From Symmachiella macrocystis (GTDB taxonomy: Bacteria; Planctomycetota; Planctomycetia; Planctomycetales; Planctomycetaceae): 64,000 bases of DNA. This document shows positions 1-60,141 of this stretch, piece after piece. The stretch covers positions 3,941,490 through 4,005,489 of the forward strand of contig NZ_SJPP01000001.1 of the NCBI RefSeq assembly GCF_007860075.1, given 5' to 3'. The notes below the pieces were generated by a model, which was not told the DNA's origin, searched no databases, and saw only the letters and a program-made list of their open reading frames with translations. The position numbers and the translations under genes were made by a program. How positions within the stretch are numbered: position 1 is the first letter of the stretch; each line of letters opens with the position of its first letter.

Positions 1-196
1 CCCGCGCGACGCGGACTGTTTCGAGGGCACCGACCGCTTAATCAGCAAGCTCTCCTCGTCGGGCATCCTTTATGAAAAGGACCTGACTACCTCTGCTGGG
101 GGGCACAGTTGGGAGTACTTTAACCACATTGCGCCGGCAACGGTGGAGTTCTTATTCCGGCGGCTGGAACGAGAACGTTTGAAGTTTCGCGACTAA
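1..196 (+). CDS. C-terminal fragment of an alpha/beta-hydrolase esterase
   Basis: This is the last 64 residues of a gene that begins before the window, read in the frame starting at base 2 and ending at a TAA stop. The segment GGHSWEYF is followed by a hydrophobic helix and a basic end. That pattern is typical of the catalytic-histidine region of esterase-D or enterochelin-esterase type hydrolases (GGH-x-W near the C-terminus). The nucleophilic serine and the acid would lie upstream and cannot be seen, so the substrate is unknown. The gene converges on the large lipopolysaccharide-export-like gene, with about 12 bases between their stops. Confidence 0.6.
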   Translation, partial: PRDADCFEGTDRLISKLSSSGILYEKDLTTSAGGHSWEYFNHIAPATVEFLFRRLERERLKFRD

Positions 197-208
197 CCGG
201 CCTACCGG

Positions 209-3200
209 TCAGTACCCTCCACCTAGCGAGGCTCCGTTGATGATCCGAGCCTCTCCCGTCAACTCATTGACGATGACTTGCTGCCCTTGGTAATGAAAAT
301 CGCGTTTTCCCTGAAAGCGTTCTCGCACCCAAACCTCCGCGAATCCATGTTTGGGGGCAGTTCGCAGCGTGTATTGTTCGCTGGAACCATCATAGGTGAC
401 CTCGTCGGCCCGTCCCCAATATTTTTGTCCGTCCAGTCGGGCATTGCCGGTGGCCAACAGAGTGATGTAGGGCTTGGACGATTGATCCGCGGCAGCCAAT
501 CTCCGCAATCGCAACGTATCGGACGCTAGCATGCCCCCCATCTCCGGCAAGTCATCGGGATCGATCACTTGCGTGGGGCGTTTGACAGGCCCATAAACCA
601 CGACGACGTCATCGTGGAATTTCGTCATGGCCGAGCTATTGGAATCGCTGAAACTGGAGACGTTGCCGTCCATGTGGCCACGGAAGGTGATTTTTGTGTA
701 TTTCCATTCCTGCACGTCACCCGAACGGACGGAGCGGTTCGAGGATGCTGAAATTCCCGGCCCCAGCGCCCCTCCCTTGCCGTTGTCCCGCCGCCAAGAT
801 TCCATCCAACCGCCGCCCGAACTGGTCATTTCTCCGGTCACCTGATTCATCGCCAGTTCAAAAATTTCACCGCGATGGGTTCCGACGAGCAAGTTCCCCT
901 CGAATTGTTTGCTATTCATCTGGACGCCATCGCGGCAGATGACTTTACGAATTTCTGCCACCTGTCGCGGATCACCATCCCGCTCAATCAGCGAAATGCG
1001 ATTGGTGAGTTCAACGTCCATCTGCCCGCACGTCAGTTCACTGTCCTCAAGCACGATCCGCACGTTGTCATAAAACCGTGCATGTAACCCGTCGAACGTC
1101 ATGCGTTCCTTCCACCACACGGTGAGCAATTCCGGCGTTTTCAATTCTTGGCCATCCAGCCGGTTTGAGACCGGTCGCTGCATCAGCCCCGCTCCCCCGA
1201 CCTGAATACGATTCTCACGTCGATTGGTGAAGATCTCCATTCCTTCGACGTGCATGCCTTTATCACGCAGGTGAGCACGCATTTCCGGCGTGTGATCGTC
1301 CGCAGGTGTGCCTTCGATCCAAATCTTCTGATGATCGTTGGTCATATCTTCGTTATGGATCGTCATTTTGTGACAATCGATGGTCAGCGGCTCATCACCG
1401 TTTTTGTGCTCCTGGATAATGGACACATGCCCGACAGTACGCAATTCAGAGACATGGTGCTCCTCGCCTTCGCGGATAACGCGAATTTGAATCCGGTCGG
1501 CATCGATACTATAGGGTTCTTGTTTGCTGACAGGCGGTCGGCGTTGTTGTTGCGGAGCAGCGGCCTTGTCAGGACTGGCTTGAGCGTCGAGCGCGTCGGC
1601 GGAGATTTCATCTTCTGTGGAGGCCAATGCTTGACCGCGACCGTGGTTCGTCAAACGGCGAGGCGGCTGCGATGCCTTGCTGGCCGCCGTGGTCTGACGA
1701 ATTGGCCCGCGCTGCCTGTTTTGTGGACGCTGATAATTCAACTTGACGAGCCGTTCTCGTGCCGCGGGTGTAGTCAACGCGGTCTCGTCGACTCGAGGGA
1801 TCTTACCTTCCTCGAACCAGACCTCTAGCTTTTTGGTACTGCCGGACATTTCCGGATCTCTGGCAGCAAAGACCACATTGGTGCGCGCCATGAGTCGCTG
1901 GATTTTTATATTTCGACTTGAACCGAATGCATCCTCGTCGACCCGCGCTGTTTTCGCTGTGCGCGGAGTCTCGTCTTCTTCCAACCAAATTCTAATGAGT
2001 TCCCCTTCAATCCCCATTTTATTCGCCTGAAGCAAGCGGGCGCCTTCTTGGAACTCCAGAATATCTTGGTTCGATTTCGGATCGGGCCGTTTCCAAATCT
2101 GCTTCTGCCACTCGGCACGATAAGCAACTTGGTGCGTGTCAGGGTCACTGGACGTCATAAAGCCCACACCCCGGCCCAGGATGGAGATGATTTCGTTGTT
2201 CTCGTCTTGGTTGATCGTCAATTCCGGACAGTAGAAATCGTTGTTTTTCTGACGAACGTGGACCCGATGACCGTCCTTCATGACGATTTGTTTTTCGTCG
2301 CCGTCGTAAGTCAATTCCTGCATCGTCGCATTCACGTTATTGTGTTGGGACTTCAGTAAGACACGCTTGCCTGTCGCTAAGAGCCGACTGAACTCCCGCT
2401 TTGAGGATTTCTTTTTGCGCGGTGGAGACGCATCCGATTCCTCGGCAGGCTGTTGAACGATTTTTTTGGCTTCGCGGAAAACGATATGCAGCATATCGCT
2501 ATCCAAGGTATCGTTGCCCTCCAGTGTACGGCGAATGACTTTGACAACTTCGCTAAAAGAGACCGTGTTCGATATCATGTCAAACACAAACGGACCGTCG
2601 CTGTTAATTTGCACCCGCTCGTCCGGTTGCCCCGGGCGGTTGCCCTCTTTGAGCAAATGCATTTCGACATGGTCACGCAAGCGGATCGTATGGATTCCTG
2701 CGATTGCCGGTTTATCACGGCTGTCCGTCTTGTTATCGGGAATCAGCTTCAGCTCCAACCCGTGGCCGGTCCCGCGATGACCGTCGTATTCAAAGACGAC
2801 CTTGTCGTCGCTCCACGCTAATGGTGACGCATCACCCGCATTGGCGAATTGTGGATTCAGTGGAGGATTTTCTTGAAAGAAAAAGTTGCGCCCCCGTGCC
2901 CACAAGCCTTGGGGCCCGCGGATTTCGTACACGCCTTTCAACGCCCCGCCAACAATCCGTCCCGGATTGTAATTCGTCGATTCAAAACCTTTTTCGAATT
3001 GCAGCACGGCCGAACGGCTCACCAGTGTATAGGGTGGCTCGCTCGGGTCGTCTTCGTTGATGACGACCATCGCAAATGGAGTGAATTCAATTTCCCCTTT
3101 GGTGCCATTCGTACCAGGACCGTTCGAAGGCGCTTCAGGTTTTCGTTCCCATTTCTCAGTAAAGATAAACCGGTTGCCGTCATGGAATTGATACAGCGCA

Positions 3201-3409
3201 TCCCAGGCCCATTTTGAATTTGGCAGATGCTTGGTCGAAATCTCATTCCGTTGCCCGCGTTTGCCAGGTTGATCAACTTTTGCCTTCACTTGCTTTTTAA
3301 CGACCGGCATCTCCCGCTGCACCATCGGCGTGACGCACAGCGCATACAACCCATATGCGCCGCACAAGCAGCCGGTGGCCAAAATGGTGATCGCCAGACG
3401 TTTAAACAA
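209..3409 (-). CDS. giant LptA/LptC-like (OstA-type) envelope protein
   Basis: The 1066-residue protein has one N-terminal hydrophobic segment (about residues 4-27) and then a long soluble, beta-rich, probably periplasmic part. Several segments resemble the OstA/LptA repeat style, where short strands alternate with 'DADRI', 'GHVSI' or 'GNARL' turns: around residues 640-720, 790-850 and at the C-terminus (about 980-1060). A basic, low-complexity stretch lies near 560-630. E. coli LptC and LptA are each under 200 residues, so this protein is about five times larger. The upstream gene, 48 bases away and co-directional, is kdsD; in E. coli kdsD is also followed by lptC and lptA. I infer a role in carrying lipopolysaccharide across the periplasm. 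The start is TTG, preceded by AGGA six bases upstream. The family call rests on motif style and neighbourhood, not on a search. Confidence 0.6.
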   Translation of the reverse strand: MFKRLAITILATGCLCGAYGLYALCVTPMVQREMPVVKKQVKAKVDQPGKRGQRNEISTKHLPNSKWAWDALYQFHDGNRFIFTEKWERKPEAPSNGPGTNGTKGEIEFTPFAMVVINEDDPSEPPYTLVSRSAVLQFEKGFESTNYNPGRIVGGALKGVYEIRGPQGLWARGRNFFFQENPPLNPQFANAGDASPLAWSDDKVVFEYDGHRGTGHGLELKLIPDNKTDSRDKPAIAGIHTIRLRDHVEMHLLKEGNRPGQPDERVQINSDGPFVFDMISNTVSFSEVVKVIRRTLEGNDTLDSDMLHIVFREAKKIVQQPAEESDASPPRKKKSSKREFSRLLATGKRVLLKSQHNNVNATMQELTYDGDEKQIVMKDGHRVHVRQKNNDFYCPELTINQDENNEIISILGRGVGFMTSSDPDTHQVAYRAEWQKQIWKRPDPKSNQDILEFQEGARLLQANKMGIEGELIRIWLEEDETPRTAKTARVDEDAFGSSRNIKIQRLMARTNVVFAARDPEMSGSTKKLEVWFEEGKIPRVDETALTTPAARERLVKLNYQRPQNRQRGPIRQTTAASKASQPPRRLTNHGRGQALASTEDEISADALDAQASPDKAAAPQQQRRPPVSKQEPYSIDADRIQIRVIREGEEHHVSELRTVGHVSIIQEHKNGDEPLTIDCHKMTIHNEDMTNDHQKIWIEGTPADDHTPEMRAHLRDKGMHVEGMEIFTNRRENRIQVGGAGLMQRPVSNRLDGQELKTPELLTVWWKERMTFDGLHARFYDNVRIVLEDSELTCGQMDVELTNRISLIERDGDPRQVAEIRKVICRDGVQMNSKQFEGNLLVGTHRGEIFELAMNQVTGEMTSSGGGWMESWRRDNGKGGALGPGISASSNRSVRSGDVQEWKYTKITFRGHMDGNVSSFSDSNSSAMTKFHDDVVVVYGPVKRPTQVIDPDDLPEMGGMLASDTLRLRRLAAADQSSKPYITLLATGNARLDGQKYWGRADEVTYDGSSEQYTLRTAPKHGFAEVWVRERFQGKRDFHYQGQQVIVNELTGEARIINGASLGGGY

Positions 3410-3457: not shown

Positions 3458-4486
3458 TCAGGCGGGGCGGGCGGCGACATCCGGCAGCAAACCGATGACG
3501 TCCGTAATGTCGATGAGTCCCACCGGGCAACCCTCAGGATCGACGACCGGCAATTCACTGATGCGTCGCTGCGAGAGTATCGCAAGCGCATCAGTCAGCA
3601 TGGCATCAGCAGTAATCGTAACCGGTCGCCGCGTCATGACGTTGCTGATCGGTTGATCAAGTTGTTCGTCGGCGCGTTGTTCTAACAGCCGCGCCAAATC
3701 GCTATCCGTAAAAATTCCCGTCAAGCCGCCGTCGGCATCGACCAACATCACCGCACCGGTGCGGCGTTCTGGACGACTAAGACCGACCAACACGTCGCGA
3801 ATCGATCGCGTCTCGTTGGAAATCCGCAAATCTGTACCGTGTCGCATGGTTTCCGCGACTGTTTTAAGCCGGTTGCCCAAACTTCCGCCTGGATGAAACC
3901 GGGCGAAATCTTGGGGGGTGAATCCTCGTTCTTCGCTAAGCACAATCGCCAGCGCGTCGCCCACGGCCAACATGGCCGTTGTGCTATTCGTCGGGGCAAG
4001 TTTTAGTTGCCCCGCTTCGCCCACAGGTCCTAACGACAACGTAATATCGGACGCCGCAGCCAAGGTACTAGTTTCTCGCCCGGTAATGGCAATCAAGTGG
4101 GTTGGCATTGATTTCAGATGGTGAATCAACTGGCAGATTTCATCCGTTTCGCCGCTGTTGGACAAAGCTAAGACGACATCGCCACCATGCAAGCACCCCA
4201 GGTCGCCGTGTACCGCTTCGGCGGGATGCAAAAACTGTGCGGGTGTGCCGGTCGACGACAACGTGGCGGCAATCTTCTGCCCGATCCACCCCGCCTTGCC
4301 CATGCCGGTCACCACGACGCGACCGGTGCATGCCAATATCGTCTCGACCGCGTGCGAAAACTGAACCGACAAATTCTCAGCCACACAATTGAGCGCAGTA
4401 GCTTCCTCACGAATAATCTGTTTTCCCGCGCGAAGCCGCGCCACCTCGACGGTGGGGATGACTAATGCGGGTTGTAACGCGCTCAT
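3458..4486 (-). CDS. kdsD: D-arabinose-5-phosphate isomerase (KdsD/KpsF family)
   Basis: This enzyme converts D-ribulose 5-phosphate to D-arabinose 5-phosphate, the first step towards Kdo in the lipopolysaccharide core, in the cytoplasm. The protein has 342 residues (E. coli KdsD has 328). An N-terminal SIS domain carries GMGKAGWIG (about 61-69), the TLSSTGTPA segment and HPAEAVHGDLG. Two C-terminal CBS domains follow (about 215-340), with 'GIFTDSDLARLL' and 'GLIDITDVIGLLP' as their typical ends. The frame is open further upstream, but the ATG at 4486 matches the family start and has AAGGA nine bases before it. The gene lies just upstream of, and is probably co-transcribed with, the LptA/LptC-like gene. 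Confidence 0.93.
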   Translation of the reverse strand: MSALQPALVIPTVEVARLRAGKQIIREEATALNCVAENLSVQFSHAVETILACTGRVVVTGMGKAGWIGQKIAATLSSTGTPAQFLHPAEAVHGDLGCLHGGDVVLALSNSGETDEICQLIHHLKSMPTHLIAITGRETSTLAAASDITLSLGPVGEAGQLKLAPTNSTTAMLAVGDALAIVLSEERGFTPQDFARFHPGGSLGNRLKTVAETMRHGTDLRISNETRSIRDVLVGLSRPERRTGAVMLVDADGGLTGIFTDSDLARLLEQRADEQLDQPISNVMTRRPVTITADAMLTDALAILSQRRISELPVVDPEGCPVGLIDITDVIGLLPDVAARPA

Positions 4487-4935
4487 GCGGGTCGTCCTTG
4501 ACCAAAAATGAGAGCAAGCCCAGCGTGGGATGGCTTGGCATGGGATAGTTGAGACGGGGCGGGAGTATATCGGTCGCACGGAAACCGGTCAATGTGGTCT
4601 TGCTGGCGGTCCTGTCTTGTAACACCTGTCTGTGAAAGAGGTTGTAGCACGCGTATGTTCGTCGGTCCTCACAAGTTGTCCGATCATGCGCTATCTCAAT
4701 TTCGCGGCGGCGTCTCAAAACTTCCCACCGGTCCTAACGATTTTTCCGCACAGGAAATAAACGAGCCGTTGTGTCGGTCCCAGGCGGCACGATTTCAGAG
4801 ACGCGTGCATTGATACTGACTCGCTGTCGCTACAATTTTTGATTCGACTTTCCGCCCGTACGTATGCCTATAATGGAACTGACACCACTCTCTTTTTTTG
4901 TCATCTCTCAACGCTTCAGCAATCGGTGAATCTCC
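4487..4935. other. intergenic region between divergent kdsD and ppk2
   Basis: These 449 bases hold no ORF with coding character on either strand. The region must contain the promoters of the divergent kdsD and ppk2 genes. A TATAAT hexamer at 4869-4874 is the only promoter-like signal I can point to. Confidence 0.6.
4844..4874 (+). promoter_or_regulatory. candidate sigma-70-type promoter of ppk2
   Basis: A perfect TATAAT (4869-4874) lies 62 bases before the ppk2 ATG. A weak -35 match, TTCGAC at 4844-4849, gives a rather long 19-base spacer. This is a sequence match only; one hexamer can occur by chance. Confidence 0.3.
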
Positions 4936-58266: not shown

Positions 58267-60141
58267 TCACCCCGCTTGACGTTTTTTCAGCGCCGCTATG
58301 CGATCACTCTGCCGACGTTCTATGTTCTCGATCGTGTCCTTGGGGATCGCTTCGATCAAGCGTTGGGTGTATTCCTCGACCGGGTTGGCGTAGATGCTTT
58401 CCGAAGGGCCGAACTCGACGATTTTCCCCATATTCATGACGGCCATCATATCCGACATGAATTTGACGACGCTCAAGTCGTGACTGATAAAGACGTACGT
58501 CAGGCCGTGTTGTTCCTGTAAGTCCTTGAGCAAGTTCAGCACTTGGGCTTGGACCGAGACATCCAAGGCGGAGACCGATTCGTCGCAGATGATGAACTCC
58601 GGCTCGACGGCCAAAGCGCGGGCAATGCAAATCCGTTGGCGTTGACCACCGGAAAACTCGTGCGGATAACGTCCCAGGAAATCCCCTTTCAGTCCGACTT
58701 CTTCCAAGAGCGATGCCGCCCGCTCGCGGCGATCTTTGCGGGACCCGCCCAGTTTGTGCACCATCATGGGTTCGGTGAGAGCCGCATCAATGGTCATACG
58801 GGGATTCAGCGAGCCATAAGGATCTTGGAAAATAATCTGGATCCGCCGCCGCATGGCGCGGAGTTCCGAGCCGCTAGCCGTGGTGGCATCGATGCCCTCG
58901 AAGGTCACTTTCCCCGAAGTGGGTTGCACCAAACGTAGGATCGCCCGACCGGTGGTTGTTTTCCCGCAACCCGATTCCCCAACTAAGCCCAGAGTTTGTC
59001 CTTTGTAGACGTTAAAGCTAATACCGTCGACCGCGCGGACGTGATCGACCGTTCGGGACAGCACTCCTTTTTTGATCGGGAAATAGACTTTCAAGTCCTC
59101 CACAGCGAGCACCGGCGTCTGCCCCTCGGGGACGGTTTCTGTATCGGCTTCGTGGTCCCCTTCTTCCCAAGGATGCCCCATCGATTTCAATTCCGCCTTG
59201 GGATGCAACAAGCGTCCGCGGCCTTTGGAGACCAATGCTTTCATTCGCTCTTCGTCAACGACCCGTTCGATGACTTCGGTCTGGTCGCCGACTTGTTTGG
59301 TTTCCATAAAGTCGACCACCGTCGGCAGCCGCCGGAACGTCGATTCCAGTTGCGGCCGGCAAGCGAGCAAGCCTTTGGTGTAGGGGTGTTGGGCATTGGT
59401 GAAGATTTCGAGAATCGTGTTGTATTCGACCAATTTGCCATTGAACATCACGGCGACATCGTCGGCGATTTCAGCGATCACTCCCAGGTCGTGCGTGATG
59501 AACAAAATGGACATGCCTCGTTCATCGCGCAATTCGCGAATCAAATCCAGAATCTGTGCCTGGATCGTTACGTCCAGCGCCGTTGTCGGTTCGTCGGCGA
59601 TGAGTAGTTTTGGGTTGCAACTGAGCGCCATGGCGATCATCACCCGCTGTTTTTGCCCACCCGACATTTCGTGCGGATAACTGTCGACCCGTCGCGACGC
59701 ATCGCGAATGCCGACTTCTTCGAACAACTCAATCGTCCGCTTACGGGCTTCGGCCTTGGAGACCTTTTGGTGCAGGATGATCGCTTCCATCACCTGCTTG
59801 CCCACCTTAAACACCGGGTTCAGTGAGGTGGTCGGTTCCTGAAAGATCATGCTGATATCTTTACCCCGAATCGACCGCATCTCCGCATCGGGCAACCGGA
59901 CCAAATCGCGCCCCAGAAACGAAATCGAACCCGCTTCGATGTTGGCCGAAACTTCCGGCAACAGCCGCATGATGGTCAGCGAGGTGACCGATTTGCCGGA
60001 CCCCGATTCCCCCACCAGTCCCAGCGTATGCCCTTCCTTGATCTTGATCGAAAGGTCATCAACCGCTTTAACGATTCCGCCATCGGTGTGGAAATAGGTC
60101 TTGAGGCCTTGAATATCAACAAGCGTAGGAGCATCAGCCAT
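58267..60141 (-). CDS. ABC transporter ATP-binding protein, fused oligopeptide-type double ATPase
   Basis: The 624-residue protein holds two complete ABC ATPases of the Dpp/Opp/GsiA type. The first has Walker A 'GESGSGKS' (44-51), signature 'SGGQKQR' (160-166) and Walker B 'LLIADEP' (179-185). The second starts at about 345 with 'GESGCGKTT' (about 388-396), and later 'FSGGQRQR' and 'FIICDES'. Each domain ends with the 'HPYTKGLLA'/'[11 protein letters not shown]' oligopeptide tail. A 90-residue linker separates them. It energises peptide or similar uptake at the inner membrane. No permease or binding-protein gene is in the window. ATG 60141 is family-consistent but lacks an SD. Confidence 0.93.

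Follow-up and report, generated by a model that had tools for sequence, protein, structure and literature searches.

A giant planctomycete protein encoded next to kdsD and predicted to join an LptC-like anchor and LptA-like jellyrolls in a single chain

In Escherichia coli K-12, genes are ordered kdsD-kdsC-lptC-lptA-lptB, and LptC and LptA are separate proteins of 191 and 185 aa, respectively. LptC and LptA are also reported to be separate proteins in Treponema (PMC8407342) and in verrucomicrobial methanotrophs (PMC10542722), and diderm Firmicutes contain two OstA proteins of about 200 aa (PMC5007114). Falchi et al. (PMC9972910) describe that E. coli can dispense with LptC if LptA is overproduced and contacted by a mutant LptF, so that the division between LptC and LptA is not absolute. 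For the elongated MlaD of Veillonella (PMC10665443), a single chain is described that connects the two membranes and replaces separate subunits. The protein presented here would be similar in this respect; however, that MlaD is made up of an MCE domain and a beta barrel, acts on phospholipid and has an unrelated fold, and according to the authors MlaD of the PVC group is without the beta barrel. Among the titles and passages covered by a literature search, there was no published case of a natural LptC-LptA fusion and no paper on the Lpt system of planctomycetes. The protein analyzed here resembles E. coli LptC and LptA in locus context, in its predicted single N-terminal helix and jellyroll fold and in belonging to one and the same Pfam family, but it is one chain with a disordered linker in the middle.

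The window is a stretch of 64,000 nucleotides of the Symmachiella macrocystis genome, and the gene analyzed here and its upstream neighbor are described in Table 1. The 1066-residue open reading frame proposed in the initial annotation was confirmed as a real gene, located on the minus strand. It starts with a TTG codon, with the motif AGGA 6 nt upstream. Comparison with a homologue from the same genus (962 of the 1066 aligned residues identical) gave a dN of 0.051 and a dS of 0.42 (dN/dS about 0.12), the highest dN (0.125) corresponding to the linker region; judged by these substitution rates, the gene is under purifying selection. Scans for promoters and terminators gave matches at chance level only. 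A lipoprotein N-terminus was rejected, since the Cys at position 14 is not kept across all alignment rows, as inspected by eye. Elsewhere in the window, a single 656-codon frame on the minus strand (58399-60069) contains a tandem pair of ABC ATPase matches, and just past the window edge (L001:4001-5977) there is a 658-aa ORF with a long repetitive stretch rich in Gly, Arg, Pro and Asn.

Table 1. Features of the giant protein gene and its upstream neighbor (positions in the window).
Feature	Coordinates	Strand	Basis or remark
Giant LptC-LptA-type protein, 1066 aa	209..3409	minus	ORF, Pfam, conservation, model, dN/dS
N-terminal hydrophobic helix, aa 2-26 (predicted)	3332..3406	minus	model and 28-row alignment
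All-beta N-terminal unit at LptC position, aa 70-260 (predicted)	2630..3202	minus	model, relative L130
LptA/LptC-like jellyroll, aa 263-421 (predicted)	2147..2623	minus	Pfam aa 274-404, VIA-align
Remaining beta strands in the N-terminal half, aa 422-541 (predicted)	1787..2146	minus	model
Disordered, poorly conserved linker, aa 543-628 (predicted)	1526..1783	minus	model, 28 rows
Jellyroll like the LptD N-terminal domain, aa 630-862 (predicted)	824..1522	minus	C-half model
C-terminal LptA-like jellyroll, aa 878-1066 (predicted)	212..778	minus	C-half model
kdsD/kpsF-family arabinose-5-phosphate isomerase (Kdo pathway)	3458..4579	minus	48 nt upstream of the giant gene

The product of the upstream gene belongs to the KpsF/GutQ family of isomerases (TIGR00393, 271 bits; cut-off 203.7); it scored 274 bits against the KdsD equivalog, under its cut-off of 505, and is named kdsD here. 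The gene had been described as sitting where E. coli keeps kdsD-kdsC-lptC-lptA. This held for kdsD, which lies directly upstream on the same strand, but not for kdsC, which is absent between both genes here and present in sister lineages. The locus also differs from that of E. coli in having no lptB beside the giant gene, the LptB of this genome being encoded on another contig. Downstream of the giant gene, the next long ORF, beyond the window edge, is on the opposite strand, so that the transcription unit of kdsD appears to end with the giant gene. An operon including lptB was consequently rejected, on the grounds of this strand change and of the different contig. In four of 38 loci (L045, L047, L048, and L063), the flanks contain an ABC ATPase that shares 32-36% identity with LptB of E. 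coli.

The kdsD neighborhood was examined in 68 loci of the order, taken from two overlapping sets that collapse into 50 clusters when 1500 nt are compared at 97% identity. In 61 of these loci (44 of the 50 clusters) kdsD was located upstream on the same strand. In the other seven the match starts within the gene, and the locus does not extend past the approximate position of the expected gene start; sequence ahead of the match amounts to 124 nt or less except in L073 (1721 nt). Thus, kdsD adjoins in 61 of the 61 loci holding sequence before the giant gene, a figure that includes some duplicates and corresponds to 44 clusters. The distance between the tblastn matches of kdsD and of the giant gene was 27-269 nt in 58 of them and 855-2255 nt in L069, L070, and L072; kdsC is found within the locus in L069 and L072. 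Of 150 genomes drawn from the order, all labelled as same family or same genus, 146 contained a homologue of the giant protein (54 of 55 genera; 128 of 130 high-quality genomes). Among the matches listed, most full-length homologues were open frames of about 975-1190 codons. The main alignment (A2) consists of 28 rows, the window sequence plus 27 of 31 ORFs rebuilt from 38 loci, with L039, L044, L052, and L068 excluded; of the other alignments, A1 covers 14 of 30 loci, and A3, A4, and A5 lack two, nine, and six of the 28 rows, respectively. The C-terminal half measures 415-454 aa in 26 of the 28 rows, and the linker ranges from 29 to 140 aa across all 28.

Searches with family profiles found PF03968 (LptA/LptD_N) once in the giant protein, at aa 274-404 (34.3 bits, cut-off 20.4; E=3e-8), and at E<=0.01 in 23 of the 28 aligned family members. 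The protein scored 27.5 bits against the LptA equivalog TIGR03002, below its cut-off of 71.7, and showed no match to LptC, either with PF06835 at E<=10 in Pfam or with TIGR04409 at E<=1 in NCBIfam; only one of the 28 family members had an LptC match (E 0.0041). When individual E. coli sequences were aligned by hhalign, LptA gave weak matches (probability 35 and 23) and LptC gave none. A tandem-repeat search of the protein found no sequence repeats, the two halves of the family aligned with each other over 92 columns only (probability 90, E 1.7e-6), and phmmer against PDB sequences returned just three weak unrelated matches, the best being Contactin-4 (E=0.019).

Structure prediction was carried out with AlphaFold. 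The whole model, based on 28 sequences, had a mean pLDDT of 76.9 and a pTM of 0.58, and comprised a helix at residues 2-26, strands at 73-534, a low-confidence segment at 543-628 and strands at 633-1064. The C-terminal half folded alone reached a pLDDT of 85.7 and a pTM of 0.82. The predicted structure has the LptC-like layout of a single helix followed by beta strands and jellyrolls, and it contains the beta-jellyroll units expected of an Lpt bridge. In the helix, R4 and Y22 are invariant in the 28 rows and T8 and L15 nearly so, T8, L15, and Y22 being spaced by seven residues, and the stalk after the helix is varied; invariant R4 and Y22 amid a varied background are as expected of a helix that would pack on a partner.

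When the whole model was compared with solved structures using VIA-align, LptA 2r1a_A matched model residues 263..421 (Z 12.1, 2.5 A over 118 residues), followed by LptC 9dor_C (Z 11.3, aa 280-442) and LptC 4b54_B (Z 10.7), the LptC structures matching residues within 239-442; LptA 8gak_A matched 953..1066 (Z 10.5), and the first unrelated row had a Z of 8.7. For the C-half model, the best match was the N-terminal domain of LptD (4q35_A; Z 15.3, 2.9 A over 162, C-half residues 1..233), together with LptA 2r1a_C on C-half residues 249..437 (Z 13.7, 2.1 A over 124) and LptA 2r19_A on 1..159 (Z 13.2). Unrelated rows in the C-half list reached a Z of 11.7 (MORN1) and 11.2 (junctophilin), and thus only the best Lpt rows stand clear. 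Foldseek also ranked Lpt proteins on top (LptD, E 1.2e-8 for the whole model and 4.2e-4 for the C-half). With the whole model, single LptA chains gave TM scores of 0.60-0.66 by target length, full-length TM scores were low (0.11-0.15 for LptD), and Rhs and teneurin rows were interspersed at similar E-values.

Since LptA, LptC, and LptD structures match in both halves, the protein is predicted to hold at least three LptA-type jellyrolls, and its N-terminal 190 residues are also all-beta within the whole model. The OstA/LptA fold proposed initially was thus borne out by prediction. The claim of several OstA repeats was sustained at the level of structural units, but not in the sequence, where the profiles detect a single stretch and no tandem repeats. 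LptA has about 16 strands. The model contains 52 strand elements, or about 45 by manual count when broken ones are joined, so that in strand number the giant protein would amount roughly to two LptA in addition to one LptC. With 4.8 A for each two-strand layer, the modelled chain would be near 11 nm long, before the jellyrolls of LptF and LptD are added.

Relatives of the giant protein were sought across the phylum, in 196 genomes. The C-half profile matched in 22 of them (12 of the order, three of the class, and seven more distant) and PF03968 in 38. Thirty loci were retrieved: the 10 that make up all C-half-profile matches outside the order, and 20 chosen from the 38 PF03968 genomes. Long stop-to-stop frames of 582-1215 codons were present in 24 loci outside the order. 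In 18 of them kdsC, kdsD or both precede the frame in the same orientation, and six, including L133 and L136, have neither adjoining; L143 and L144 were counted neither as long nor as small. Eighteen of the 24 long loci were scanned with HMMs, leaving out L134, L135, L137, L139, L141, and L142. An N-terminal LptC domain above the curated cut-offs (PF06835/TIGR04409) was present in eight of these 18. In seven (L109, L129, L130, L131, L132, L133, and L136) it was followed by a later LptA/LptD_N match above cut-offs; in L108, which was not counted, the LptC match overlaps its own LptA match. Five of the seven lie downstream of kdsD-kdsC. L133 (1115 aa) and L136 (1112 aa) have LptC and then LptA at the size of the giant protein, and L105 and L106, of similar size, gave no Pfam family match.

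The clearest case was L130, a protein of 655 aa encoded downstream of kdsD-kdsC, which contains LptC at aa 48-193 (Pfam 62 bits against a cut-off of 21; TIGR04409 70.6 against 38), three PF03968 stretches and a TIGR03002 score of 82.3 against 71.7. In single profile-profile comparisons, the L130 type aligned with the N-half of the giant protein (probability 98, E 2e-13) and with its C-half (probability 95, E 3e-8), residues 155-233 of the giant protein aligning to residues 130-196 of L130, which correspond to the second half of the L130 LptC domain. The LptC-(LptA)n fusions L129-L132 (650-660 aa), from four genomes of the phylum, share with the giant protein the N-terminal helix, kdsD upstream and this profile homology. 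In contrast to it, they are shorter, have kdsD-kdsC upstream and exceed the curated LptC and LptA cut-offs, including that of the LptA equivalog TIGR03002.

The same phylum also contains small LptA-like proteins of 167-215 aa without adjoining kdsD or kdsC (L125, L126, L127, and L128, from G202, G216, G158, and G244, respectively), possibly an unfused or re-split state. L143 (G165) approaches the E. coli gene order, with kdsD, a match to the LptA family and an LptB sharing 57% identity with the E. coli protein standing in a row; this locus may belong to another lineage or be a foreign contig.

The partner genes named in the initial annotation were searched for in the genome. LptB was identified at C3:573401 (324 bits, cut-off 240). 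In the corresponding region (L078; G000 C3:567401-580108), the neighbors of lptB are two ORFs resembling signal peptidase I and one resembling lepA, all named by reading. Two LptF/G-type permeases exceeded the Pfam LptF_LptG cut-off, at C2:733769 (159 bits) and C1:261415-262506 (91 bits), both remaining under the NCBIfam cut-offs for LptF and LptG (129 of 230 and 79.5 of 240). A 1134-aa LptD-like ORF (C1:1869882-1873286) scored 18.7 against PF03968 (cut-off 20.4) and 23.4 against TIGR03002 (71.7); towards its end it matches a porin weakly, and it gave no match to PF04453, a family that matches only two of 14 controls. The genome thus encodes LptB, two LptF/G-type permeases by Pfam and an LptD-like protein. 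LptC (PF06835) was not found in the genome at E<=10, and the genome scan with PF03968 at E<=10 returned the LptD-like gene only. No separate lptA or lptC was found by these scans, of which that for PF03968 also missed the giant protein itself.

This last result leaves room for a different reading, in which the giant protein is an elongated anchored LptC only and a separate, strongly diverged LptA completes the bridge to LptD. A scan too insensitive to see even the giant protein could also have let a diverged small LptA escape, and small LptA-like proteins do occur in some other planctomycetes. However, the three or more LptA-type jellyrolls already predicted in the giant protein, the finding that a profile of its own LptA-like domain matched nothing but itself in the genome at E<=10, and the joint occurrence of LptC and LptA domains in seven of the 18 long relatives scanned make this reading unlikely. 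Less likely still is a bridge for another lipid, either phospholipid or another glycolipid, instead of LPS. Treponema pallidum, which does not synthesize LPS, is reported to keep Lpt proteins (PMC8407342), but against this stand the Kdo pathway gene kdsD adjoining in every informative locus, kdsD-kdsC ahead in sister lineages, and family matches that are to Lpt families. That the giant protein sits at the outer membrane as an LptD-like protein lacking the barrel, as its best C-half match might suggest, is hardly credible, given that the model has a hydrophobic helix at its start and jellyroll strands at its end, that the genome has a separate LptD-like gene, and that the N-terminal domain of LptD and LptA have a common fold within the same Pfam family.

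The proposal of an LptC-like anchor and a multi-repeat LptA in one polypeptide is supported by the predicted fold, the synteny with kdsD, the relatives with both LptC and LptA domains, the partner genes and the result that imperfect scans found no separate lptA or lptC. We consider it probable that the giant protein is the periplasmic part of the Lpt exporter as one chain, formed by an anchor and jellyroll bridge units reaching to the LptD-like protein. Its N-terminal helix would anchor the chain in the inner membrane beside LptF/LptG, as LptC does. LPS would reach the jellyroll units from LptB2FG and move along them, as it does on LptC and LptA, with the last unit of the chain docking on the jellyroll that belongs to the LptD-like protein of the outer membrane. 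The most economical account of its origin would be that LptC and LptA were fused, and LptA units added, in an ancestor within the phylum. Export, topology, docking, spanning of the periplasm and fixed length are what we infer for this protein, as is LPS as its cargo, the latter because of the kdsD-kdsC context and the partner genes. The nearly uniform size of the C-half is consistent with a fixed length. Doubt on this comes mainly from the variable linker, which could be either a loop sitting on an uninterrupted groove or a hinge that joins two rods. Being disordered, it may break the groove, and since it splits the chain with varying length, the chain may not form one rigid rod.

With confidence evenly balanced, we propose that in most of the order the whole periplasmic Lpt bridge from LptB2FG to LptD may be one covalent chain anchored in the inner membrane, without exchange of LptA subunits. 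As its jellyroll halves are near-constant in length, it might serve as a molecular ruler that sets how far apart the membranes lie. A transient bridge is reportedly the subject of a 2023 paper in Nature, going by its title. With a covalent bridge, one could ask directly if separate LptA units that exchange are required in E. coli, and if the width of the periplasm is set by the length of the bridge.
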